A stretch of DNA of 64,000 bases from Rhodospirillaceae bacterium (GTDB lineage: Bacteria > Pseudomonadota > Alphaproteobacteria > CACIAM-22H2), in assembly GCA_022843945.1 (NCBI GenBank), contig JALHMR010000018.1, forward strand, positions 1-64,000, given 5' to 3'. Positions 38,366-55,324 of the stretch are shown piece after piece. Positions within the stretch are counted from its first letter, which is position 1, and each line of letters opens with the position of its first letter. A program made the translations under genes and the position numbers. The notes under the pieces were generated by a model that did no database searches, was not told the DNA's origin, and saw only the letters and a program-made list of their open reading frames with translations.

Positions 38366-39541
38366 TCACTGCGTTATGGTCGTGGCGCTAAATGGCCGGG
38401 ACGGCGCGCCGTCGATCATGAGTCGCAGGTAGATGTCGTGGTTGGCCAAGTTGAGAAGGTCGATCGGCTCGAACGTCCCTTTAAGCTCTCGGCCGAGAGC
38501 TACGGCATCCTGCGGCCCGACGCGAAACGCTATGAGCGTTCCGACATTGCCAAGCACGGCATCACGAATGTCATCCGATAGTTGACTTAGGTGCTGGTGC
38601 CCGAGAATCAGTCCAACGCCATACTTCCGCAGTTCCGACGCCATGCTAGCGATGAAGTGCGTGGTAAAGGCTTGGAACTCGTCGATGTAGAGAAAGAACG
38701 GACGGCGCTGTGACTCAGGCAGCTCGGCGCGACTAAAGGCGGCGAGCCCAACAGTGGTGACAAGCAGGCTGCCCAACAGCGACGCGCTGTCTTCACCGAT
38801 CCTCCCCTTGGCTAGGTTGATAATGACCGCGCCGCCCTCGTCCATGACGCGCCTGAAGCTGATATCCCGCTCGGGCTGCACGAGAACGCGATAGAGCAGG
38901 GGATCGCCTAGGAAGGCGCCGATCTTGTTCTGTATCGGCGCAATGCCCTCAGTTCGATACCGCTGCGGATAGCCTTCGTATTCCTCAAGCCAGAAGGCTT
39001 GGACTTGCGGGTTATCCGATGTGGCTGCGCACTCACGGCGGAACGTGTCATCGGTAAGGACACGAAGCACGTCGGGCAGGACGGCGGTCGGCTGTTCCAG
39101 GAGCAGGAGGAGCGCGTTGCGTAGAACATGCTCCATGCGAACGCCCCACGCATCTGCCCAGATGTTCTTGAACGTCTCCATGAGGCCGGACGCGGCAAGC
39201 GAGCGCCGCTCGCGTGCTACGCGGCGTAGCGGGTTGTATCCGAATGGCTGAGTAGGGTCAGTTACGTTGAAATAGAGCACGCGTTCCCGCTCCCGCTCGG
39301 GGACGCGGGCGTACAAAGAGTCCGCCAGATCGCCGTGCGGATCGATGAGGCAGAAGCCTCGACCTCCCTGCATATCTTGAGCGGCTAACGTTTCGAGGAG
39401 CGTCGTCTTCCCGGTGCCCGTCTTTCCGATGAGGTGCATGTGGAAGAGCCGATCCGCCTGCTTAATGCCGAAGCGGCGGCGGTCGTTCCGAAAATTAGTC
39501 CGGGCGAAATATGAGACTGGATCGATGCTGCTTCGCTGCAT
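38366..39541 (-). CDS. VirD4/TraD-like ATPase, second
   Basis: 391 residues. Walker A LIGKTGTGKTTLLETLA lies near residue 45, FCLIDPHGDLADSL near 70, Walker B PFFLYIDEFQAFTT near 280 and GVGLILGHQHLSQL near 310, typical of type IV secretion coupling-type ATPases with a TraM-recognition region. No membrane segment is seen. The start is the ATG at 39539-39541. It is on the opposite strand to its module partners. Confidence 0.82.
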   Translation of the reverse strand: MQRSSIDPVSYFARTNFRNDRRRFGIKQADRLFHMHLIGKTGTGKTTLLETLAAQDMQGGRGFCLIDPHGDLADSLYARVPERERERVLYFNVTDPTQPFGYNPLRRVARERRSLAASGLMETFKNIWADAWGVRMEHVLRNALLLLLEQPTAVLPDVLRVLTDDTFRRECAATSDNPQVQAFWLEEYEGYPQRYRTEGIAPIQNKIGAFLGDPLLYRVLVQPERDISFRRVMDEGGAVIINLAKGRIGEDSASLLGSLLVTTVGLAAFSRAELPESQRRPFFLYIDEFQAFTTHFIASMASELRKYGVGLILGHQHLSQLSDDIRDAVLGNVGTLIAFRVGPQDAVALGRELKGTFEPIDLLNLANHDIYLRLMIDGAPSRPFSATTITQ

Positions 39542-39743: not shown

Positions 39744-39965
39744 ATGCCCAGCGGCCAGAACGAAGCCTGCTCACGAATTTTTATCAACAAGGCGCTAGAA
39801 TTTAGCGGCTGGAATTTTCTTGATCTTAAGCAGGTTCAATTCGAACTTCACACAACGCAGGGCGGGGCCGACTGCACACGTAAGAATAAACCCGGCCATG
39901 TTTCCGATGTGCTGAAGGCTAAACGCGCCGTGCGTCCAGTGGGAGACCGACTAACCTATGTTTGA
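39744..39965 (+). pseudogene. Remnant of a type I restriction R-subunit N-terminus
   Basis: 73 codons overlapping the hsdM start by 8 bp. NEACSRIFINKALEFSGWN, VQFELHTTQGGAD and VLKAKRAVRPVGD line up with the N-terminal nuclease region of HsdR-type proteins (usual pattern: ALKAAGW, then ADYVL, then VIEAKR). The catalytic EAK is KAK here and the domain is cut short. It is probably a decayed fragment, though it could be a small protein. Confidence 0.5.
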
Positions 39966-41412
39966 ACAGGCATTCAAAAACATCGACGACGTACTTCGGA
40001 AGGAGGCCGGTTGCACCACCGAGCTGGATTACACCGAGCAGGCTTCGTGGCTTCTGTTCCTGAAATATTTGGATGGACTAGAAGAGGATAAGGCCACCGA
40101 AGCGGCGCTCGATGGGAAGAAATACACCTATATCCTCGACAAGCCCTATCGATGGGAAAACTGGGCTGCACCCAAAGGCAAGGATCGCAAGCTCGACCAC
40201 AACAAGGCCATGACCGGCGACGATCTGCGTGACTTCGTCAACGGTAAGCTTTTCCCCTACCTGCACGGTTTCAAGCAAAAGGCCAGCGGGCCGAACACTA
40301 TCGAATACAAGATCGGCGAAATATTCGCGGAGATAAAAAACAGGATTTCGAGCGGCTACAATCTGCGCGAGATCATCGACCACATCGACGAGCTGCGCTT
40401 TCGTTCGCAGACCGAGAAGCATGAGCTGTCGCATCTCTACGAAGCCAAGATCAAGAATATGGGGAACGCCGGGCGGAACGGCGGCGAGTATTACACCCCA
40501 CGTCCGCTCATTCGCGCCATCGTCCAGGTCGTAGAGCCCAAGATCGGCGAGCGCATCTATGACGGTGCCTGCGGCTCGGCGGGCTTCTTGTGCGAGTCGT
40601 TCGTCTCTATGAAGGCTAAGCCCGGCCTCACCACCAAGGAAGCCAGGACGCTCCAGGAGCGCACCTTCTACGGCAAGGAAAAGAAGTCCCTCGCCTATGT
40701 GATCGCGATCATGAACATGATCCTACACGGCATCGATGCGCCGAACATCGTCCATACCAACACGCTCACCGAGAACCTCGCTGACATTCAGGAGAAGGAC
40801 CGCTTCGACGTAGTGCTGGCTAATCCGCCGTTCGGCGGAAAGGAGCGTAAGGAAGTTCAGCAGAACTTCCCCATCCGCACCGGCGAGACGGCGTTTCTCT
40901 TCCTCCAGCACTTCATCAAGATGCTCAAGGCGGGCGGGCGCGGCGGCATCGTCATCAAGAACACGTTCTTGTCGAACACCGACAATGCCTCGGTTTCCCT
41001 GCGCAAGCTTCTGTTGGAAAGCTGCAATCTCCACACCGTGCTCGATTGTCCGGGAGGCACCTTCCAGGGCGCGGGCGTGAAGACGGTGGTGCTCTTCTTT
41101 GAGAAAGGCGCGCCCACACGAAAAATCTGGTTCTACCAGCTCGATCCAGGCCGCAACATGGGCAAGACCAACCCGCTCAACGACACCGACCTCGCCGAGT
41201 TCATCAAATTGCAAGAGACCTTCGCCGACTCGCCCAAGTCGTGGAGCGTGGAGGTGAAAAGTGTAGACAAGGGGACTTTCGATCTCTCCGTAAAGAATCC
41301 GAATGGCGGCGAGGAAATCGCGCACCGCAGCCCAGAAGAGATCATGGAAGAAATTGCCGCGCTGGACGCCGAGAGCGCGGAAGTGCTGGAGAATATCAAG
41401 GCACTACTATGA
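39958..41412 (+). CDS. hsdM: Type I restriction-modification methyltransferase subunit HsdM
   Basis: A 484-residue N6-adenine methyltransferase. It has the helical HsdM N-terminal domain, SAM motif I DGACGSAGFLCESF near residue 200 and motif IV VLANPPFGG near 288. It modifies the recognition site together with HsdS. ATG 39958. The hsdS start overlaps its stop in ATGA, so the operon hsdM-hsdS-hsdR is translationally coupled. Confidence 0.95.
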   Translation: MFEQAFKNIDDVLRKEAGCTTELDYTEQASWLLFLKYLDGLEEDKATEAALDGKKYTYILDKPYRWENWAAPKGKDRKLDHNKAMTGDDLRDFVNGKLFPYLHGFKQKASGPNTIEYKIGEIFAEIKNRISSGYNLREIIDHIDELRFRSQTEKHELSHLYEAKIKNMGNAGRNGGEYYTPRPLIRAIVQVVEPKIGERIYDGACGSAGFLCESFVSMKAKPGLTTKEARTLQERTFYGKEKKSLAYVIAIMNMILHGIDAPNIVHTNTLTENLADIQEKDRFDVVLANPPFGGKERKEVQQNFPIRTGETAFLFLQHFIKMLKAGGRGGIVIKNTFLSNTDNASVSLRKLLLESCNLHTVLDCPGGTFQGAGVKTVVLFFEKGAPTRKIWFYQLDPGRNMGKTNPLNDTDLAEFIKLQETFADSPKSWSVEVKSVDKGTFDLSVKNPNGGEEIAHRSPEEIMEEIAALDAESAEVLENIKALL

Positions 41413-42611
41413 AAACGAAATGGGTAGTCAAAGAACTTGGAACGGTGTCTGCCATTAACTATGGCTATACGGAAAGCGCTTCGAGCGATCCAATTGGTCC
41501 ACGATTTCTCCGCATCACCGATATCCAGGACGACCGCGTCGATTGGGAAAACGTGCCCTATTGCAAGATTGAATCAGCGGACGTCCCAAAATACCGCTTG
41601 GCCAGCGGAGACATTGTTTTTGCGCGAACAGGGGCGACGACTGGCAAGAGCTTCCTCGTGGACGAGCCACCCGATGCGGTGTTTGCGTCGTATTTGATTC
41701 GACTGCGGTTGCTCGACAAGAAGCTGTTGCCTGAGTTCGTATCGCTCTTCTTCCAGACCGCAGGTTACTGGAAGTCGATCAAAGATGGTTCAGCCGGCAG
41801 CGCGCAAGGTGGTTTCAACGCGACCAAACTTGGCGCTCTCTCCATACCGATTCCTCCACTCCCCGAACAGCAGCGGATCGTCGGCATTCTCGACGAAGCG
41901 TTTGACGACATCGCCACCGCCAAAACCAACGCCGAGAAGAACCTCCGAAACACCCGCGCTCTGTTTGAAAGTTACCTGAACACCGTTTTCACTCAGCGCG
42001 GTGAGGAGTGGGTGGAAGAACCTCTCGGCTTGCACGTTAGGTTTGTCGATTACCGGGGTAAAACGCCGCCTAAGACAGTATCCGGTGTTCGCCTGATAAC
42101 GGCGAAGAATGTCAAGAAGGGCTTCATTCAGAGAGCGCCTGAGGAATTCATTGACGCAACGGCATACGACGGCTGGATGACCAGGGGATTTCCTACGAGA
42201 GGCGATGTGCTTTTTACGACTGAGGCGCCATTGGGAAATGTCGCTCAGCTGGACACCGATGAGAAGGTCGTTATTGGACAGAGGCTCATCACAATGCAGC
42301 CGGACCCTAATAGACTTGATCGGTCATTTCTCAAATTCATGTTGTTATCGAATCCCGTGCAAAATGAACTATTGATCAGGAGCACGGGCGCAACAGTGCA
42401 GGGGATAAAGGCGAGCCTACTGAAACAGGTGCCAATTTATTACCCGAGACGAATATCTGAGCAGGTTGGGATTGTTGAAGACTTGGAGGCGCTGTCTACC
42501 GAAACCCAGCGCCTCTCCTCGCTGTACGAGCGCAAGCTCGTCGCACTTGAGGCGTTGAAAAAGTCGCTGCTGCACCAGGCCTTCACCGGCCAGCTTAGAG
42601 CCACGCCATGA
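41409..42611 (+). CDS. hsdS: Type I restriction-modification specificity subunit HsdS
   Basis: 400 residues with two target-recognition domains, each followed by a conserved helix (IPPLPEQQRIVGILDEAFDD near residue 155; RRISEQVGIVEDLEAL near 350). GDIVFARTGATTGKSF and GDVLFTTEAPLGNV are typical motifs. It determines the DNA sequence recognised. The two target domains differ, so the site should be bipartite. Confidence 0.93.
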   Translation: MKTKWVVKELGTVSAINYGYTESASSDPIGPRFLRITDIQDDRVDWENVPYCKIESADVPKYRLASGDIVFARTGATTGKSFLVDEPPDAVFASYLIRLRLLDKKLLPEFVSLFFQTAGYWKSIKDGSAGSAQGGFNATKLGALSIPIPPLPEQQRIVGILDEAFDDIATAKTNAEKNLRNTRALFESYLNTVFTQRGEEWVEEPLGLHVRFVDYRGKTPPKTVSGVRLITAKNVKKGFIQRAPEEFIDATAYDGWMTRGFPTRGDVLFTTEAPLGNVAQLDTDEKVVIGQRLITMQPDPNRLDRSFLKFMLLSNPVQNELLIRSTGATVQGIKASLLKQVPIYYPRRISEQVGIVEDLEALSTETQRLSSLYERKLVALEALKKSLLHQAFTGQLRATP

Positions 42612-44929
42612 ACGAAGCCGAGACCCGAGCCGAGCACATCGATCCCGCCCTAAAGGCGGCGGGCTGGGGCGTGGTCGAGGGGAGTCGCATCGCGCGCGAG
42701 TATCCCATCACGCTGGGACGGATCGAAGGCCACGGCCGGCGCGGCAAGGCTGACATTGCCGATTACGTGCTGGTGTATCGCAACACCAAGCTGGCCGTCG
42801 TCGAGGCGAAGGCGTGGGACAAACTTCTGACCGAAGGCGTGGCGCAGGCGAAGAGCTACGCGGGCAAGCTGGAAATCCGTTTCGCGTATTCTACCAATGG
42901 GCAGAGCATCTACGGCATCGACATGCGCGAGGGCGCGGAAGCCGAGGTGCCGCACTATCCCACGCCGGATGAACTCTGGAATCGCACCTTTGCTGTGCAG
43001 AACGAGTGGCGCGACCGTTTCGCCGCTGTGCCCTTCGAGGACAAAGGGGGCTACTTCCAAGGGCGCTACTACCAGGACATCGCCATCGAGCGCGTGCTGG
43101 AAGCTATCGCAGCCGGGACACCGCGCATCCTGCTCACGCTCGCCACCGGAACGGGCAAGACCTTCATCGCCTTTCAGATTGCGTGGAAGCTGTTTCAGAG
43201 CCGCTGGAATCTGAGCCGCGAGCCATCGCGCCGCCCGCGTATCCTCTTCCTTGCCGACCGCAATATTCTCGCGGATCAGGCATACAACGCCTTCTCCGCT
43301 TTCCCCGAGGATGCGCTTGTGCGGATCGAGCCGGCGGACATCCGCAAAAAAGGCCGCGTGCCGAAGAATGGCAGTCTGTTCTTCACCATCTTCCAGACCT
43401 TCATGAGCGGAGCGCCCAAAGACGGGAAGCCCTCTCCCTATTTCGGCGAGTATCCGCCGGACTTCTTCGATTTTATCGTCATCGACGAGTGCCATCGTGG
43501 CGGAGCCAACGATGAAAGCAATTGGCGCGACATCCTCGACTACTTCGCACCTGCCGTGCAGCTCGGCCTCACCGCCACGCCGAAGCGCACGGAGAACGTG
43601 AACACCTACCGATATTTCGGTGAGCCCGTATACGTCTATTCGCTCAAGGAGGGCATCAACGACGGCTTTCTCACTCCGTTCAAGGTGAAGCAGATTTCTA
43701 CGACGCTCGATGAGTATGTCTTTACACCGGACGACAAGCTGATCGAAGGCGAGGTGGAGGGTGGAAAGCGCTACACTGAACCCGATTTCAATAAGATCAT
43801 CGAGATCAAGGAGCGCGAAGCGCACCGGGTGAAGTTGTTCATGGATATGATAGACCAACGCGAGAAAACGCTGGTCTTCTGCGCCACCCAGGATCACGCG
43901 CTGGCCGTGCGCGACCTCATCAACCAGACGAAGACGAACAAGGACCCGAATTACTGCCAGCGCGTGACAGCCAATGACGGCACGCCAGGCGACCAGCACC
44001 TGCGAGATTTTCAAGACAACGAAAAGACCATCCCGACCATCCTCACCACGTCGCAGAAGCTTTCCACCGGCGTGGACGCTCGGAACATTCGTAACATCGT
44101 GCTGATGCGCCCAATCAATTCGATGATCGAGTTCAAGCAAATAATCGGACGTGGCACGCGGCTTTACGACGGGAAGTACTACTTCATGATCTACGACTTC
44201 GTGAAGGCGCACCATCACTTCAACGATCCTGAATGGGACGGCGAGCCCATTGAGCCGGAGCCGGAGCAACCCAGGCCGGTTCCTCCGCCGACAGACCCGT
44301 CCGCGCCACCGGAGCCCAGACCCGAACCAAGTCCGCGTCCTCAGAAGATCAAAATCAAACTCGCTGACGGCAAAGCCCGCACCATTCAACACATGACGAT
44401 GACCACGTTCTGGCACCCCGACGGCACACCCATGTCCGCGCAGCAGTTTCTGGAGATGCTCTACGGCAAGCTGCCTGAATTCTTCAAAGATGAAGCCGAG
44501 CTGCGCGCCCTGTGGAGCGCTCCCGACACGCGGGCAAAGCTTCTGCTAGGTTTGGCCGAGAAAGGCTTCGGTAAAGAGCAGATGGCCGAGATGCAGAAGG
44601 TCATCGACGCCGAAAAGAGTGACCTGTTCGATGTCCTGGCTCATGTCGCCTACGCCTTGCAACCGCTCACTCGCGAGGAAAGGGCCGCCAAGGCGAGGTC
44701 AGTGATCAGCAGCTACTTCAACACAAAGCAGGCGGTCTTCCTCGACTTCGTGCTCTCGCACTATGTCAGCGAAGGTGTGGGCGAACTCGATCAGGACAAA
44801 CTGACACCCCTGCTCCGCCTCAAATATCACAACTCCATTGCCGACGCCGTCGCCGACTTGGGCAAGCCAGAAGAGATCGGGAAGGTGTTCACGGGCTTCC
44901 AGAAATTCTTGTACCAAGAAGCGGCGTAA
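42608..44929 (+). CDS. hsdR: Type I restriction endonuclease subunit HsdR
   Basis: 773 residues. The N-terminal nuclease domain has ADIADYVLVYRNTKLAVVEAK (D, then E-A-K) near residue 60. Walker A LATGTGKTFIAFQ is near 178, DEAD-type box IDECHRGG near 290, GLTATPKRT near 318 and IIGRGTRLYDG near 512. It translocates and cuts unmodified DNA. The Pro/Glu-rich stretch at ~545-580 links motor and C-terminal domains. ATGA overlap with hsdS. The gene appears intact. Confidence 0.94.
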   Translation: MNEAETRAEHIDPALKAAGWGVVEGSRIAREYPITLGRIEGHGRRGKADIADYVLVYRNTKLAVVEAKAWDKLLTEGVAQAKSYAGKLEIRFAYSTNGQSIYGIDMREGAEAEVPHYPTPDELWNRTFAVQNEWRDRFAAVPFEDKGGYFQGRYYQDIAIERVLEAIAAGTPRILLTLATGTGKTFIAFQIAWKLFQSRWNLSREPSRRPRILFLADRNILADQAYNAFSAFPEDALVRIEPADIRKKGRVPKNGSLFFTIFQTFMSGAPKDGKPSPYFGEYPPDFFDFIVIDECHRGGANDESNWRDILDYFAPAVQLGLTATPKRTENVNTYRYFGEPVYVYSLKEGINDGFLTPFKVKQISTTLDEYVFTPDDKLIEGEVEGGKRYTEPDFNKIIEIKEREAHRVKLFMDMIDQREKTLVFCATQDHALAVRDLINQTKTNKDPNYCQRVTANDGTPGDQHLRDFQDNEKTIPTILTTSQKLSTGVDARNIRNIVLMRPINSMIEFKQIIGRGTRLYDGKYYFMIYDFVKAHHHFNDPEWDGEPIEPEPEQPRPVPPPTDPSAPPEPRPEPSPRPQKIKIKLADGKARTIQHMTMTTFWHPDGTPMSAQQFLEMLYGKLPEFFKDEAELRALWSAPDTRAKLLLGLAEKGFGKEQMAEMQKVIDAEKSDLFDVLAHVAYALQPLTREERAAKARSVISSYFNTKQAVFLDFVLSHYVSEGVGELDQDKLTPLLRLKYHNSIADAVADLGKPEEIGKVFTGFQKFLYQEAA

Positions 44930-44941
44930 GGTTCCGAACTT

Positions 44942-45136
44942 CGCGGCATCTATTCAAGGGGTGCGTTCGGAAACACTACCCCCGGCTCTACGCGCTTCAG
45001 GTCGAAGATCAACGGCAACACCTTCACCTGGGGCGGGAACACCAAGTTCGAGTTCACAATGAAGGACGGCAAGCTCCACGGCGAACGGGTCGTTGCAGGG
45101 AGCGTCAACACGATCGTCATGACGAAAGTGCAGTAG
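44942..45136 (+). pseudogene. Truncated C-terminal copy of the 47,320 lipoprotein
   Basis: 64 codons plus a stop that align without gaps to the C-terminus of the protein at 47,320-47,784 (TTPGSTRFRSKINGNTFTWG here; TTPGSTRFRTKINGNAFTWG there), about three quarters identical. It starts 12 bp after the hsdR stop and has no start codon or signal peptide. The intact paralogue lies beyond the inverted-repeat unit. Confidence 0.85.
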
Positions 45137-45295
45137 TGGAGTGCATGCTGCTGGGCTCGGGTGCACGTATTGCCGAACCTGACGCACGACAAGCAAAAGG
45201 GACGCGTCGGTGCAAAGCGTACGGAGCGCGTAGGCGCTGTATTCAGAGAAGAGAGAAAAGGTGAAGTATAATTATCAGGTAACAGCAATAATAAC

Positions 45296-45313
45296 TGAAC
45301 AAAATGGGGTATT
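45296..45313 (+). repeat. Left inverted repeat of the 2.0-kb unit
   Basis: TGAACAAAATGGGGTATT. It contains the ATG start codon of the recombinase (45304-45306). Confidence 0.8.
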
Positions 45314-45963
45314 CAGTTGGCGAAGTCAATACTAATACTACTCATAGTAGAGAGGAAGACGATGAAAATGCTTCGATCTCCTTCCTCTATGACCGTGAAG
45401 GCAATCGGAAGTATCTCACACGCGCAGAACGCAACGCTTTCCTAGCTGCCGCCTCTAGGATATCGCCGGAGGCTCGAACATTTTGCCTAACACTCGCGTA
45501 TACCGGCGCACGTATATCTGAGGTTCTATCGCTGACGCCAAAGCGCATCGATACCCGCGCCGGCATTATCATCATCGAGAGCCTAAAAAAACGCAGGCGC
45601 GGAATCTATCGCGCGGTTCCTGCACCATCGACGCTCATCGCTGAACTAGAGCTCACGCACGCTATCGAGGCGGCAAAGACTGACCCAGTACGAGCCAGAC
45701 AAAGGATATGGAAGTTCTGTCGTACGACGGCCTGGAAATCGGTAAAGACGTGTCTGCAGATCGGGGGTATCGTTGGAGCATCCGCGAATCCAAAAGGCTT
45801 GAGACACGCCTTTGGCGTCGAAACGCTGCAAGCGGGTGTGCCGTTAAATCTAGTAAAGAGGTGGCTTGGTCACGCTCGTCTAGAGACCACGGAGATATAT
45901 ACGAATGCTGTTGGCGACGAGGAGCGGTCGATAGCACGTAAATTTTGGAACACATTCGAATAG
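45304..45963 (+). CDS. Minimal tyrosine recombinase (catalytic domain only)
   Basis: 219 residues with TGARISEVL (Arg70), K-x-x-R-H in NPKGLRHAFG (Lys164 in place of the usual His, Arg167), LGHARLETTEIYTN (His190, Tyr199). It lacks a separate core-binding domain, having only ~40 residues ahead of the catalytic fold. Its start codon lies inside the left inverted repeat, so repeat and gene are physically linked. It presumably acts on the repeats of its own unit. The next gene starts 36 bp later. Confidence 0.8.
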   Translation: MGYSVGEVNTNTTHSREEDDENASISFLYDREGNRKYLTRAERNAFLAAASRISPEARTFCLTLAYTGARISEVLSLTPKRIDTRAGIIIIESLKKRRRGIYRAVPAPSTLIAELELTHAIEAAKTDPVRARQRIWKFCRTTAWKSVKTCLQIGGIVGASANPKGLRHAFGVETLQAGVPLNLVKRWLGHARLETTEIYTNAVGDEERSIARKFWNTFE

Positions 45964-45999
45964 GTGAGCAGGTCGTCCAGACACGTGAAGGATTGAGCC

Positions 46000-47229
46000 A
46001 TGGAAACCACCAGCGAAAAGCTCGACAGCTTCTTTGGCCAAGTGAAGACGCTGACGTTCTGGAGGCGCATCTTCCACTGGGCACAATTCAGAACTCTAAG
46101 CTACGACGCATATCAGGAGTTCAAAGCACTCCTCTCGAAGATTGCTCAGTTGATGCAAGATTTAGAGAAGGTCACGCACGAGGCGGCACTTCTCAAGAAA
46201 GATAACGATCATCTTCTCCAAAATGAGAAAACCCAAGGCGCTGAGCTAACCGCCTTGAGAGCTAGGGCTGAGCGCCTAACGGAGGAAAACAGCTCCCTTC
46301 GAACCCAGAATACTGCCTTCCAGCAAACCGAAGAAACCCGCCGCCGGGACTATGAGACCAGGGTGGCGACGTTGAATTCAATTCAGCAGCAGATTCAGGC
46401 AGATCGAAAGGAGGAGATTGAAGAGCGGCAACGCAGTGAAATGGCGGCCCTGATCAGCCTAAAGGGGACCTGGTCAAAGCATCAAACCCACGTACAAGAG
46501 GCGATCAAAGGGATCTGCAGTAAACACACCATCGGCTACGTAGAGAACGTCCCGTTTAAGGGTACGCCGGACAATACGATCAAGATTTCCGATGAATTTG
46601 TTGTCTTCGACGCGAAAAGCCCTGGAGGAGACAACCTCGACAATTTCTTTGCCTATATAAAAACTCAGACGGAACAGGTCAAAAAGTACGCCAAGGAAGA
46701 GAACGTCAGAAAAGATATCTTCTTGGTGATACCTTCAAACACGGTTCACGTGATCAGCCAGTTCGTATTCAATATGGCGGACTACAACGTCTATGTTGTC
46801 ACGCCGGACTCTTTGGAACCCATCTTTCTCAGTCTGAAAAGAATTGAGGACTATGAGTTCGTCGATCAGCTGAGCCCCGAAGAGCGAGAAAATATTTGCA
46901 GGGTCATCGGAAAATTCGCGCATATGACAAAGCGCAGAATCCAGATTGATCACTTCTTCAGCCGCCAGTTTCTCGAGATCCTATTGAAATGCGACGCGGA
47001 TCTACCACCGGATATTCTAGAGAAAGTCGGCGAGTATGAACGGTCAGAAAAATTAAACCCGCCGCAGGAGAAGAGAGCAAAGATCATATCCGGTACGGCA
47101 CTCGAAGCTGACGGGAAGTTGATCCGGCGAGAGGCAGAGGCAAAAGGCATCGTGTTTCCACAATCGATTCAGCAGGACATCAAAGCCCTCCCCCTGTATG
47201 GGGACGGGAAACTTGAACCGAACGGCTAG
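46000..47229 (+). CDS. Coiled-coil protein with a PD-(D/E)XK-like domain (RmuC-like)
   Basis: 409 residues. A hydrophobic/aromatic patch (~10-30) is followed by a coiled coil (~45-155) and an alpha/beta domain with GTPDNTIKISDEFVVFDAKS (PD at 190-191; D204-A-K206), the spacing of a PD-(D/E)XK nuclease, and DIFLVIPSNTVHVISQFVF further on. The overall plan resembles RmuC, but I cannot assign it firmly. ATG 46000 has AAGGA 7 nt upstream. It ends 46 bp before the right inverted repeat. Confidence 0.6.
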   Translation: METTSEKLDSFFGQVKTLTFWRRIFHWAQFRTLSYDAYQEFKALLSKIAQLMQDLEKVTHEAALLKKDNDHLLQNEKTQGAELTALRARAERLTEENSSLRTQNTAFQQTEETRRRDYETRVATLNSIQQQIQADRKEEIEERQRSEMAALISLKGTWSKHQTHVQEAIKGICSKHTIGYVENVPFKGTPDNTIKISDEFVVFDAKSPGGDNLDNFFAYIKTQTEQVKKYAKEENVRKDIFLVIPSNTVHVISQFVFNMADYNVYVVTPDSLEPIFLSLKRIEDYEFVDQLSPEERENICRVIGKFAHMTKRRIQIDHFFSRQFLEILLKCDADLPPDILEKVGEYERSEKLNPPQEKRAKIISGTALEADGKLIRREAEAKGIVFPQSIQQDIKALPLYGDGKLEPNG

Positions 47230-47275
47230 CGCTGTGGTGGTGCTCCTAGGGAGTCAGTAAGCATCGCCTGAACAC

Positions 47276-47293
47276 AATACCCCATTTTGTTCA
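47276..47293 (-). repeat. Right inverted repeat of the 2.0-kb unit
   Basis: AATACCCCATTTTGTTCA on the plus strand, the exact reverse complement of 45296-45313. Confidence 0.8.
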
Positions 47294-47319
47294 CCTCCAA
47301 ATTCCTCAGGGGGTGAACC

Positions 47320-47784
47320 ATGCGTCATGCGTTTCTTGCTGTCGTCGCTCTTCCGCTTGCCTTGTGCGCCTGCCAGACAACAGGCTCCTCGGGGGGCGGT
47401 AGCACCGCCTCTGCCCCGAGCGCATCGACCTTCAACAGCGTCCCGCTTCCAGCCAATACAGACATTGCGGCTCCAGGGCCGGATGTACCTGCGAACCTAG
47501 CTGCCTTCAGTGGTAAGTGGGGCGGGATCTGGGATGGTGTGCTCCCAAGCCTAGTCGTCATCGAAAGTGTGTCAGCTACCGGCGACGTTCGTGGCGTCTA
47601 TGCGTGGGGAGCCTACGGCACTACCACGCCCGGCTCGACCCGTTTCCGGACGAAGATCAACGGGAACGCGTTCACCTGGGGCGGCGGCACGAAGTTCGAT
47701 TTCGTGATGAAAGACGGAAAGCTCCATGGCGAGCGGACCGTGAGCGGTAGCCTCAACACCGTCGTTATGTCGAAGGTGCAGTAG
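47320..47784 (+). CDS. Lipoprotein of unknown function
   Basis: 154 residues. A signal peptide and lipobox (LPLALCACQTTG; lipidated Cys at residue 18) are followed by a Ser/Gly-rich linker and a compact beta-rich domain (GKWGGIWDGVLPSLVVIESV; FTWGGGTKFDFVMKDGKLHG). ATG 47320 follows AGGGGG. A truncated paralogue lies at 44,942-45,136. It is followed 2 bp later by a second lipoprotein gene. Confidence 0.72.
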   Translation: MRHAFLAVVALPLALCACQTTGSSGGGSTASAPSASTFNSVPLPANTDIAAPGPDVPANLAAFSGKWGGIWDGVLPSLVVIESVSATGDVRGVYAWGAYGTTTPGSTRFRTKINGNAFTWGGGTKFDFVMKDGKLHGERTVSGSLNTVVMSKVQ

Positions 47785-48311: not shown

Positions 48312-48776
48312 CTATTCGTTACAGATCAGAATAAACGCGAGTGCCGCGAACGCGACGACTGCAACTAACTGCTGCTTGCTTCGCGTCGACCGAATGCTAC
48401 CGGCTAACTCGCTGAGCTTGCCCGCGTACTCGGTGACGGAGAAGTTCCGAAGATCGAACGCTTGATACTTGCGTAGCCAGCCAGGCAGCTCAGATGGGTC
48501 AATGTCCCATACGAGCGGGATGATGGTCTTAGACTCGTTAACGGCCATACCGAATTCCTGATTTACGTACGGCGACGCACAGGCCGCTTTGCTCATGAGG
48601 CAAAGCACAATCGGGCTAGCCTGAAGGGCCGTCCGGATCTCGTCCCCCCATACAGCTCCAGGCTTAAGCGAAACGCTCGCTAGAAATGCTGAAAGTTCAT
48701 GCTCGGCCAAGACCTTATGAACTGTCCGGGCAAACTCATCATCAGCTGTCGAGTAACTAATAAAAACGTCGGACAT
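48312..48776 (-). CDS. Membrane-anchored TIR-domain protein
   Basis: 154 residues. TIR fold from residue 2 (DVFISYSTADDEFARTVHKV), with the NADase glutamate in VNQEFGMAV (Glu74), then PLVWDI and LPGWLRKYQAFDLR. Residues ~137-152 form one C-terminal membrane helix (LVAVVAFAALAFILI). There is no separate sensor domain. Bacterial TIRs act in abortive immunity by NAD degradation or signal synthesis. It is divergent from the helicase/CBASS operon, 118 bp apart. Confidence 0.85.
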   Translation of the reverse strand: MSDVFISYSTADDEFARTVHKVLAEHELSAFLASVSLKPGAVWGDEIRTALQASPIVLCLMSKAACASPYVNQEFGMAVNESKTIIPLVWDIDPSELPGWLRKYQAFDLRNFSVTEYAGKLSELAGSIRSTRSKQQLVAVVAFAALAFILICNE

Positions 48777-51800: not shown

Positions 51801-52209
51801 CTTAAAGGAAGAAAGCGATCACATTCGCCTCGCTTTAGTCCACTGTAAGTTCTCTGGGGGCGCCACCCCCGGCGAGCGAGTAAAGGACGTTGTTGAAGTT
51901 TGCTCTCAGGCGGTCCGCTCTTCTAAATGGAAATGGAAGTTCCGCGACCTATGCCGGCATATTGCCGGCCGCGAAAAGCGCTTAGCAACCGTCGCCCGCC
52001 CTACTCGGTTCATTGAGGGTAGGTCGGCTGATTTAAACAAATTTATCAAGATTAGCCGTTTCAAAGAGATTCGGCCTGAGATCCTTATTGTTCAACCGGG
52101 ACTATCTCAAGCCGCACGAACGGCGGAGCAGTCTGCAGTGCTGGCGGCCGCCCTTGCGTATTTGAAGCAAACTATTGGTGTCGATATCGACATCATTTGC
52201 AGCCAATGA
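48895..52209 (+). CDS. SF2 helicase with C-terminal nuclease-like domain, CBASS-linked
   Basis: 1,104 residues. Walker A MPTGTGKTETML near 176, DEAH box VVDEAHHIG near 285, FTATPFRRDG near 310, GEGFDLPELK near 440 and QFTGRFTRT near 466 define a superfamily 2 motor. The C-terminal region has AADLVCLK then LALVHCKFSGG near 981, similar to the degenerate PD-(D/E)XK nuclease (D, then H-C-K) found at the end of related helicases, and EVCSQAVRSSKWKW. ATG 48895. The CD-NTase start overlaps its stop. Confidence 0.82.
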   Translation: MTQIPLTLPGEQLAVKVPPLEVRLSYSIGQLRHVIAAGGTFRVTGTMEAQISPRRKETVYDLENGERIIITSRATLDRPREVDGVLRRNPDGKLKWLTHRRAEDVYAAAASDGWARVAAAIAESWKGKFAFRAEVRNADGIVAADNRGLRPPQLGALHAVGAHWSLSQQPATIVMPTGTGKTETMLSVLAAYGGAPLLVVVPSDVLRTQTARKFLTFGLLRELGVLTDDAKNPIVGIVTKRPKAAADLELFGHCNVVIGTMSSLGEGVPANLIEQMAGQVQTLVVDEAHHIGAGGWSAFREVFSKRPILQFTATPFRRDGKLVDGGVIYNYPLRAAQKDQYFKKITFEPVYEIDPTEADRVIATTAVGKLRADLAAGRNHLLMARCRTIDRATAVHAIYRTLAADLNPLLLHSEMSEADERLAQLRSGRSRIVVCVNMLGEGFDLPELKLAAIHDLHKSLAVLLQFTGRFTRTAGTNIGDATVIANIADPDVTSALERLYSEDADWNQLLSELSSDAAREHAELVAFLNSSQRLEGSDDEEDDTTPISHQLLRPTLSTLMYRADEFRPKRFHEGLPAGMEVHRVWLNEASKTLFFVTRFEPHIKWTRSRALRDRQWALFVLHFDAATKLLFLSSTDHSSTFDALAGAVGGTQLISGDVIFRTLGRISRLIFQNVGVKKHGRRNLRYAMYTGADVAEALSISERAGSVKSNLSGTGWEDGRPVTIGCSYKGRVWSREQGPIPRFVKWCADVGAKIIDDSIDTRQIIANVLIPEEVVTLPEREVLGLEWPLELVGQSEERVVLSRDGRERPLSMFDIRFTRMDRVTDTIEFSLIEASGETWGTFGLTVGGPEGFRVSRQSTSTVEIKVGALELPLEQYLSDYPPLVRFIDLAELDGNLLVKPQDTTQLTIPEERFEAWNWVGVDLEKETIWKDEVERLDSIQWRAARHFVAGGFDIVFDDDSAGEAADLVCLKEESDHIRLALVHCKFSGGATPGERVKDVVEVCSQAVRSSKWKWKFRDLCRHIAGREKRLATVARPTRFIEGRSADLNKFIKISRFKEIRPEILIVQPGLSQAARTAEQSAVLAAALAYLKQTIGVDIDIICSQ

Positions 52210-53099
52210 ACCAACAGTGGGAAGATAAATTTAGAAATTGGGCTAAGCCTCCGAGCGAAGCCGAAGAAAAGCGCTGCGAAAACACCTTGGGCGCTATTCG
52301 CGAAGCTATCCAAAAAAACCAGAAATTGAATACGCGGAGCATCCGTATCTTCTCTCAAGGTTCCTATCGTAACAACACGAACGTACGCCGCGAAAGCGAT
52401 GTAGACATTGGAGTGACCTGCACCGAGGTGTTTTACGAAGACTATCCCGAAGGCATGTCCCGAGAGAATTTCGGTAATGTCGACTCAGGCTATTCGTATA
52501 GCCAGTTTAAGACCGAGGTAGGCGAAGCTCTGATAAGTCATTTCGGGGCTGGAGCGGTGACCCGTGGCAACAAGGCCTTTGACGTACGGGAGACGCAACG
52601 ACAGGTCGAAGCCGACGTAGTGCCTTTCTTCCAGCATCGGCGGTACAGCAGGGATGGGCGATATCTCGAGGGCGTGGAACTACGGCCAGACAATGGCCGG
52701 CCACAAAAGATAATTAATTGGCCCGAGCAGCATTATGAAAATGGCGTCGCTAAGAACAACCAAACCGGTAAGCGCTATAAGGCTCTGATTCGAGTACTCA
52801 AGAGCCTGCGCAATGAAATGGATGATGGCGGTAAGGCCTCGGCCGGACCAATCATCGGCTTCCTGTGTGAATGCCTAATGTGGAATGTTCCCGACTCTTA
52901 TTTTGGAAATGAGAGCTACTGGCTCGATCTCAGGGGAGTGCTCGTATACCTGTACGAAAAGACCCAGACCGACGTGCTATGCCAAGAGTGGGGAGAGGTG
53001 AGTGAGCTTAAATATCTGTTTAACCCGCTCCAGAAATGGACCAGGCAACAGGCCAATACTTTCATTGTCGATGCATGGGCCCACGTGGGATTCGCGTAA
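52206..53099 (+). CDS. CBASS CD-NTase (cGAS/DncV-like nucleotidyltransferase)
   Basis: 297 residues. The nucleotidyltransferase signature G52-S53-Y-R followed by SDVDIGV (Asp65, Asp67) and a third acidic residue in VEADVVPF (Asp137) supply the catalytic triad. The helical domain carries RYKALIRVLKSLRNEM. It would make a cyclic oligonucleotide on infection. ATG 52206 overlaps the helicase stop in ATGA; the Cap15 gene starts 5 bp after its stop. Confidence 0.9.
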   Translation: MNQQWEDKFRNWAKPPSEAEEKRCENTLGAIREAIQKNQKLNTRSIRIFSQGSYRNNTNVRRESDVDIGVTCTEVFYEDYPEGMSRENFGNVDSGYSYSQFKTEVGEALISHFGAGAVTRGNKAFDVRETQRQVEADVVPFFQHRRYSRDGRYLEGVELRPDNGRPQKIINWPEQHYENGVAKNNQTGKRYKALIRVLKSLRNEMDDGGKASAGPIIGFLCECLMWNVPDSYFGNESYWLDLRGVLVYLYEKTQTDVLCQEWGEVSELKYLFNPLQKWTRQQANTFIVDAWAHVGFA

Positions 53100-53104
53100 G
53101 AACT

Positions 53105-53731
53105 ATGCTCACCCGTATTCACATAACGTGCTTGCTCATCCTCATTGTCGCCATCTGGACGACCGTGCTGTTCGTGATGGGCGTGCCTCTAACATGGGAT
53201 TACGTTAAGCCATTTGCCATCACTGTCAGTGGCGTGTCCGTCGCCTGCGTGGTTTTTGATCGCTGGCTGTGGAGAAGCCGCCTTTTCAAGGGGTGGCTCG
53301 TTAAGCGACCTGATCTCCAGGGCACGTGGCGTGCTGTAATGCAATCGAGCTATACCGATCCGCAGACCCAAAAGCCTATTCCGCCGATAGAATGCGTCGC
53401 TGTTATCCGACAGAGCTTTTCAGCATTCAGTCTGCGTATGTTCACCAAGGAATCGAGCTCCTTCCTCACAGCGCATAAACTCATACCGCAAAACGACGGC
53501 GTATTTCAGCTCGCAGGGGTCTACCAAAACACGCCGGATGTGCACCTGCGGGGCATAAGAAGCGAGATACACTATGGCGCGCTGCTTCTTGAGGTGCGTG
53601 GCGATCCGGCGGTCGAACTCAATGGTCACTACTGGACCGACCGTTTGACTAAGGGCTCACTTGTCCTTTTTGACCGAAGAACGACCCTATTAAACGGGTA
53701 CGAGGAAGCGGCAAAAATATATCGTCCGTAG
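53105..53731 (+). CDS. cap15: Cap15-like CBASS effector (membrane + beta-barrel)
   Basis: 208 residues. Two N-terminal membrane helices (~5-25 and ~32-52) are followed by a domain starting KRPDLQGTWRAVMQSSY and rich in beta strands (IECVAVIRQSFSAFSLRM; HYGALLLEVRGDP). This is the architecture of Cap15, which binds a cyclic dinucleotide and disrupts the inner membrane. ATG 53105; the upstream extension lies inside the CD-NTase gene. It is the expected effector of the adjacent synthase. Confidence 0.82.
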   Translation: MLTRIHITCLLILIVAIWTTVLFVMGVPLTWDYVKPFAITVSGVSVACVVFDRWLWRSRLFKGWLVKRPDLQGTWRAVMQSSYTDPQTQKPIPPIECVAVIRQSFSAFSLRMFTKESSSFLTAHKLIPQNDGVFQLAGVYQNTPDVHLRGIRSEIHYGALLLEVRGDPAVELNGHYWTDRLTKGSLVLFDRRTTLLNGYEEAAKIYRP

Positions 53732-54223: not shown

Positions 54224-55324
54224 ATGGCAGTAAGAAAAATAAGACACACTTGGTGGGTTGATTTCCGCTTCAACGACACACGATACAGAAAGCGCAGTCC
54301 GGAAAATTCACGAACCGGCGCACAAGCATATGAATTGGTGCTTCGCCAAAGGCTTGCGCGCGACAAGACTCTCGACAGCCCAGAGAAAACCGCAGCGAAA
54401 ACTTATTCGTTCGAGGAGTTCGCTTGGAGATGGTTCGAAGAGTATGCGGTGCCAAGCAACAAGAATTCCGAGCAGCGCCGGAAGCGGTACGCTCTTAAGG
54501 CCTCGCTGATACCGTTCTTCGGGAGAATGGCGGTAAACAAGATTGGCGTCCACGATATCGAGCGATACAAGGCGAAGCTCACTAAAAACGGGCTGGCTGC
54601 CAAAACCGTCAACAACAACCTCACGGTTCTCCGGAAGTGCCTTGGCGCAGCTCATGAATGGCTCCAGTTAGAGGGCACCCCTCCTAAAATTGTCAGGCTT
54701 AAGTGTGCTCCTCCTAGAACGGACTATCTTGACGAAGAAGAGGCCAAGCTGATCTTGACACACTCCCATGGCGTCATAGGAGAGCTGATACTCACCGCTT
54801 TGAGGACTGGCATGCGGCAGGGGGAACTCAAAGGGCTGCAGTGGTCCTCTATAAACTGGCGAAATCGGTTGATTGTCGTGCGGCATTCCAGAAACGACTA
54901 CACGAAGGAATTAGAGACACCAAAGAACAACAAGGAGCGAAGCATTCCGTTTGCCGATGACCTCTATCAGACGCTCGAAAAGAGGAAGAGGAAGGAAGGT
55001 TACGTCTTCCTGGATGTTGACGGGGAGCCGTTCAACCATAAACGCCTCTCTCGTCGGCTGGCGAACATTTGCAAGTTGCTCAGCATGCGAAAAATCGGCT
55101 GGCATACCTTCAGGCACACCTTTGCGTCTCACCTCGCAATGCGAGGCGTTCCCTTGAACGCGGTGCAGATCTTGATGGGTCACTCGACCATTGCTATGAC
55201 CGCGCGATATGCACACGTCGCTCCCTCTACCTTGAGAGCAGCGATAGATGTATTGGAGCCATCGTTTGGGCAACCTGTGGTCAACCAGCGGTCGGAGCCG
55301 GACCAGAGATATGCCGCTCAATAA
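54224..55324 (+). CDS. Second tyrosine recombinase of element 1
   Basis: 366 residues. A SAM-like core-binding domain (~65-155) precedes a catalytic domain with TGMRQGELKGLQW (Arg), HTFRHTFASHLAMRG, MGHSTIAMTARYAHV (His, Tyr). It has a short AP2-like arm-binding N-terminus (IRHTWWVDFRFNDTRYRKR). It differs from the DUF4102 integrases at 28,185 and 61,043. A direct repeat lies in its 3' end and 300 bp downstream. Confidence 0.9.
   Translation: MAVRKIRHTWWVDFRFNDTRYRKRSPENSRTGAQAYELVLRQRLARDKTLDSPEKTAAKTYSFEEFAWRWFEEYAVPSNKNSEQRRKRYALKASLIPFFGRMAVNKIGVHDIERYKAKLTKNGLAAKTVNNNLTVLRKCLGAAHEWLQLEGTPPKIVRLKCAPPRTDYLDEEEAKLILTHSHGVIGELILTALRTGMRQGELKGLQWSSINWRNRLIVVRHSRNDYTKELETPKNNKERSIPFADDLYQTLEKRKRKEGYVFLDVDGEPFNHKRLSRRLANICKLLSMRKIGWHTFRHTFASHLAMRGVPLNAVQILMGHSTIAMTARYAHVAPSTLRAAIDVLEPSFGQPVVNQRSEPDQRYAAQ
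55266..55286. repeat. 21-bp direct repeat, copy A (inside integrase 3' end)
   Basis: Begins TTGGGCAACCTGTGGTCAAC; identical over 21 bp to 55,566-55,586. It may be an attachment or arm site of the second recombinase. Confidence 0.6.

Follow-up and report, generated by a model that had tools for sequence, protein, structure and literature searches.

Two genes on the same strand, the first for a tyrosine recombinase and the second for a passenger protein, lie between inverted copies of an 18-bp sequence in the window, by which we mean the whole 64-kb stretch of DNA analyzed here (Table 1). The repeat, TGAACAAAATGGGGTATT, occupies positions 45296-45313 on the forward strand and 47276-47293 on the reverse strand, with no mismatch between the two copies; for matches with up to three mismatches, the chance expectation is 0.01 in the window. 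The initial annotation had described perfect 18-bp inverted repeats around exactly two same-strand genes, with the recombinase ATG inside the left repeat, and the coordinates bear it out in all three respects, the recombinase gene beginning at 45304. Searched for across the 5.4-Mb genome, as that annotation had proposed, the exact 18-mer is found only at the two arms in the window, with no further occurrence. The 18-mer belongs to a 25-bp dyad, being the stretch of it that both ends share without a difference, and this dyad, not the 18-mer alone, is the functional unit of the repeat.

Table 1 Features of the two-gene unit and of its surroundings, with positions in the window
Feature	Position	Strand	Basis or remark
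Type I RM	39958-44929		
3' remnant of second lipoprotein gene	44935-45136	+	Between hsdR and the unit
Candidate promoter/leader, TATAAT + leader AATAATAAC	45267-45295	+	Directly outside left site, common to second copy; no clear -35
Left recombinase core site, TGAACAAAA-TGGGGTA-TTCAGTTGG	45296-45320	+	Held-out core-site model: second best in 64-kb window; recombinase start codon inside
Tyrosine recombinase and probable invertase, 219 aa; a catalytic domain without SAM-like/core-binding domain	45304-45963	+	Pfam Phage_integrase, E 2e-21
Passenger, 409 aa, long coiled coil, then possible PD-(D/E)XK domain	46000-47229	+	Sequence, family search, structure model
Right recombinase core site, inverted orientation, TGAACAAAA-TGGGGTA-TTGTGTTCA	47269-47293	-	Held-out core-site model: best in 64-kb window; central 7 bp as in left site
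Hairpin GTTCACCTCC-N10-GGGGGTGAAC over ribosome-binding site of lipoprotein gene	47289-47318	+	Arms identical in both copies, loops differ
Lipoprotein gene adjoining right site, predicted lipocalin/FABP-like small barrel	47320-47784	+	Structure model and Foldseek
TIR	48312-48776		
DEAD/ResIII helicase, 1104 aa	48895-52209		Directly ahead of CBASS operon
Short CBASS operon: CD-NTase, then Cap15-like 2TM effector	52197-53731		PADLOC Cyclase E 2e-124
Integrase	54224-55324		

In the recombinase, the Pfam match spans residues 37-202, the arginine motifs of boxes I and II are GARISE and KGLRHAFG, and LGH and IYT motifs can be read from the translation. Among P0001 and its relatives, many have KGLRH in box II where XerD has HVLRH, a lysine replacing the first histidine. 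The protein scores below every NCBIfam cut-off, those of the chromosomal Xer equivalogs included, and its 50 bits at best against the tyrosine-type DNA invertases (FimB/FimE; cut-off 221-222 bits) place it outside that family. No relatives were found on viral contigs, and phages gave only weak integrase matches (30% identity or less among the matches listed), which led us to reject a viral origin. An integron cassette was likewise rejected, as the enzyme consists of the catalytic domain only and its integron-integrase scores fall far under the cut-off.

The second gene is harder to place. The PD at residues 190-191 and the D204-A-K206 reported for the passenger are indeed present, and this PD...DAK motif and the order of strands and helices fit a PD-(D/E)XK nuclease; the single-sequence structure model is poor (pLDDT 59), too poor for a fold search, and the family search returned no match. 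Homologs were found neither on plasmids nor in 384 further genomes from the class.

Each arm of the unit is a dyad about a short center. Judged from their sequence, the two arms are 25-bp recombinase core sites in inverted orientation, each made up of an arm, a 5-7 bp crossover, and a second arm, and they are not transposon ends. A position matrix derived from 15 loci, none of them in this genome, scores them at 25.3 and 16.8, ranks 1 and 2 in 64 kb, with the next match at 10.9. The lower score, that of the left site, was reached in 1 of 40 shuffled windows; by these scores the left site is moderately distinctive by itself, and the pair of sites is beyond doubt. Across the recombinase family, the site consensus is GAACAGAAT-N5-ATTCTGTTC. 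The initial annotation had named findings that would show the repeats to be coincidental; they are not coincidental, and they belong to the recombinase.

Relatives of the recombinase from elsewhere in the class, in other families, likewise have such a dyad near the recombinase gene, together with an inverted partner. At four loci (L047, L048, L049, and L071) the sites flank the recombinase alone, with no passenger, over 0.69-0.92 kb, and at eleven (L050-L052, L054, L055, L057, L078, L079, and L085-L087) they lie 130-145 bp apart upstream of the recombinase. A pair like that of the window was not found at L005-L007, which came from the first genome scan. Pairs were detected by similarity over 20 bp, and centers were positioned by their dyad. 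Over 17 loci, mismatches within pairs number 0 of 119 positions in the central 7 bp versus 70 of 306 in the arms, a split with a joint p of about 1e-11 conditional on the number of mismatches, and these loci have 16 distinct centers. Identical centers within a pair are what strand exchange between its two sites would require, and identical or nearly identical spacers are likewise the rule for inversions at pdif sites (PMC13141974).

A second copy of the unit is present in the same genome, on contig 25 (L008:8448-10255), with a recombinase 67% identical to that of the window and a perfect 25-bp inverted pair, TGAACAAAATGGGCTATTTTGTTTA, whose arms score 29.0 each in the core-site matrix (ranks 1 and 2 in 18 kb; next 14.2). 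The initial annotation had proposed looking for the recombinase with other passengers, and this copy provides one: a 293-aa protein, unrelated to the passenger in the window, whose N-terminal region looks membrane-spanning. Distant relatives of this protein occur elsewhere; for the one that we examined (G287), no such recombinase lies near. The central 7 bp differ between the copies, TGGGGTA in the window versus TGGGCTA in the second copy. A lipoprotein gene lies directly past the right arm here also, and both copies hold the same position relative to this homologous gene, in two homologous islands. A coupling-protein-like ATPase (TrwB/DUF87 matches; 38366-39541 and L008:6068-7408) is 83% identical between the islands, but the cargo lying between it and the unit is hsdMSR in the window and a DUF2971 gene in the second island. 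A terminator scan of the second copy gave five terminator-like sites versus 2.3 expected.

The two copies group with L047 and L048 (support 91/89), where the sites lie around the recombinase, a lipoprotein gene follows the right site, and the passenger is absent, from which we take the passenger to be a probable addition within the inverting segment. The gene next to the sites encodes a lipoprotein in L049 as well and another secreted protein in L054 and L055, and in L071 it is of a different kind. For the lipoprotein in the window, the structure model has a block of pLDDT 81-96 from residue 41, and the best Foldseek match (E 8e-4, TM about 0.42) underlies the predicted barrel. The hairpin ahead of this gene would sequester its ribosome-binding site in any read-through transcript. 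Promoter and terminator scans of the window unit performed no better than on shuffles, and the promoter scan made no call at the TATAAT sequence outside the left site. The remnant upstream of the unit is 76% identical to positions 47583-47784 of the intact lipoprotein gene, which suggests past rearrangement or cargo insertion beside these lipoprotein genes. By its gene content (Table 1), the neighborhood is a defense-rich mobile island, and for that reason a defense role for the passenger is plausible by association.

At seven of the loci with short segments (L052, L057, L078, L079, L085, L086, and L087), the segment adjoins a gene that reads away from it and encodes a small secreted protein, these proteins being apparently related to one another. 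Reversing the segment in silico joins, at all seven, a start codon (ATG; GTG in L052) and a conserved peptide, MKQN(I/Y)LFC or similar (MKQN..FC), in frame to the secreted-protein gene. In the assemblies, five of these loci lack a start for this gene in the site region and the other two offer only TTG; each short switch was assembled with its start codon pointing away from the secreted gene. By eye, a promoter-like TTGAT(A/T/C)-N16/17-TA stands ahead of the start within the segment. These segments of ~135 bp, invertible in appearance, may serve alphaproteobacterial elements in start-codon phase variation. Phase variation commonly targets surface and secreted products. Because the centers are protected within pairs and computed inversion joins genes in frame in these relatives, the recombinase family looks like phase-variation invertases, with an action resembling that of FimB or RecV.

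The closest functional parallels are FimB/FimE at fimS and the RecV type at Clostridioides difficile cwpV, where a surface gene is switched by inverting a segment that likewise lies between inverted repeats. FimB and FimE are catalytic-domain-only enzymes of about 200 aa, matching the window recombinase in size and domain content, although in sequence the latter is not closely related to FimB/E or the chromosomal Xer equivalogs. Unlike in the FimB/FimE and RecV systems, the recombinase gene and cargo here lie within the inverting segment. In this respect the unit resembles Hin, whose gene is inside its own invertible segment, with the switched gene just past one site, as the neighbor gene lies beyond one site in the window; Hin, Gin, and Pin, however, are serine recombinases, and their enzyme and site structure are unrelated to those described here. 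In cryptic prophage DNA of Escherichia coli, PinQ inverts a 1.8-kb segment, and the protein that results prevents phages from adsorbing (PMC12529663); PinQ is likewise the invertase of a mobile region but is of the serine type and acts on a different prophage (PMC12529663). The dif modules of Acinetobacter (pdif/XerCD) also carry cargo between inversely oriented sites that need identical or nearly identical spacers. Their recombinase is the host XerCD, whereas the window unit encodes its own and has a different site consensus, and we rejected its assignment as a dif module on these two grounds.

Taken together, we consider the unit probably to be a self-encoded DNA inversion module, that is, a phase-variation switch with cargo, on a defense-rich island. 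It has the two inverted core sites with the same crossover flanking a segment that characterize a tyrosine-recombinase inversion switch. In the proposed mechanism, the recombinase would bind the two core sites, and strand exchange between their identical centers would flip the 1.97-kb segment that holds recombinase and passenger. In the sequenced orientation, the TATAAT outside the left site would drive transcription of both genes and onward in the direction of the lipoprotein gene. Flipping would sever them from the TATAAT and leader, so that the recombinase start would instead follow the right-flank GGAGGTGAACAAA and its start codon would meet the perfect ribosome-binding site GGAGGTGA of that flank. 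The predicted inversion would change only the upstream leader, and in neither orientation would the lipoprotein gene start from within the site. Flipping of the window copy, and its effect on passenger and lipoprotein, we infer from these sequence features.

No flipped junction was seen, and no comparable locus was found assembled in both orientations; searches for the opposite orientation in close relatives of G189, G201, G113, and G398 and on plasmids found no near-identical pair. In the four lipoprotein-linked units (window, L008, L047, and L048), the recombinase always reads toward the lipoprotein gene. With one orientation at all comparable loci, switching must be biased or rare, and free 50:50 flipping is unlikely. 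The cwpV switch, at about 5% ON, is itself biased (PMC2784873).

The initial annotation had suggested a small mobile defense cassette. Of this, the association of repeats, recombinase, and variable cargo holds, in that the repeats belong to the recombinase and the passenger differs between the copies. Mobility fares less well: the core sites are inverted, both copies have the same flanks, and site pairs exist without any passenger. An inverted core-site pair by itself permits inversion, not excision or transposition, and the unit is probably not a hopping element. A cassette could still move between replicons as has been proposed for dif modules, either through cointegrates that form and are resolved or by exchange of cassettes, with its own recombinase replacing XerCD. 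Such exchange would suit the presence in one genome of two copies, each in its own island and with an unrelated passenger, and in Acinetobacter, modules bounded by inversely oriented sites whose spacers are identical are exchanged (PMC13141974). We nevertheless regard it as unlikely, given that only two copies exist, in the same place relative to homologous genes and with different centers, that site pairs are also present where there is no passenger, and that an empty target site was not found.

Two further explanations start from the enzyme and from the repeats. The nearest plasmid relatives of the recombinase adjoin parA/rep genes on small plasmids and lack a clear inverted pair, as if the family consisted of plasmid resolvases and the unit were a relic of plasmid maintenance, its second inverted site having arisen by duplication or serving as a binding site through which looping would allow autoregulation. 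A regulatory site, however, has no reason to hold its crossover identical while the arms drift, nor does this account give a reason for the in-frame fit with the secreted gene at seven of seven loci, and we find it very unlikely. That inverted repeats bound two genes exactly could also recall an insertion-sequence-like element with terminal inverted repeats, an identity that we think extremely improbable: the two arms are themselves dyads around a crossover and match recombinase core sites at other loci, the protein encoded between them belongs to the tyrosine recombinases, the candidate promoter is not within the unit, and target duplication is not evident. A transposon with terminal inverted repeats was rejected on the copies as well, only two being present, both upstream of homologous lipoprotein genes and with the same flanks. 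The inversion module is the reading that we retain.

The recombinase family is apparently undescribed, no description of it having been found in open-access text. Further members of the family adjoin spore-coat-U (pilus-like) genes and an EAL-domain gene at L070, and a helix-turn-helix gene and a flagellin gene at L072; no clear site pair was found at either locus, and these neighbors are further possible targets of phase variation. A broader proposal, which we put forward only tentatively, is that these recombinases form a new family of tyrosine invertases reduced to the catalytic domain and widespread among the plasmids and islands of alphaproteobacteria, and that their self-flanked inversion module carries an exchangeable defense gene, so that defense gene, invertase, and lipocalin-like surface lipoprotein might be switched together. 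A recombinase in a defense island is usually taken for a sign of mobility and nothing more; this family gives sequence evidence that some such enzymes are switches, with the core-site consensus serving as a direct search tool for more. Overall, the copies described here raise the idea that cargo genes may be phase-varied along with their own invertase.
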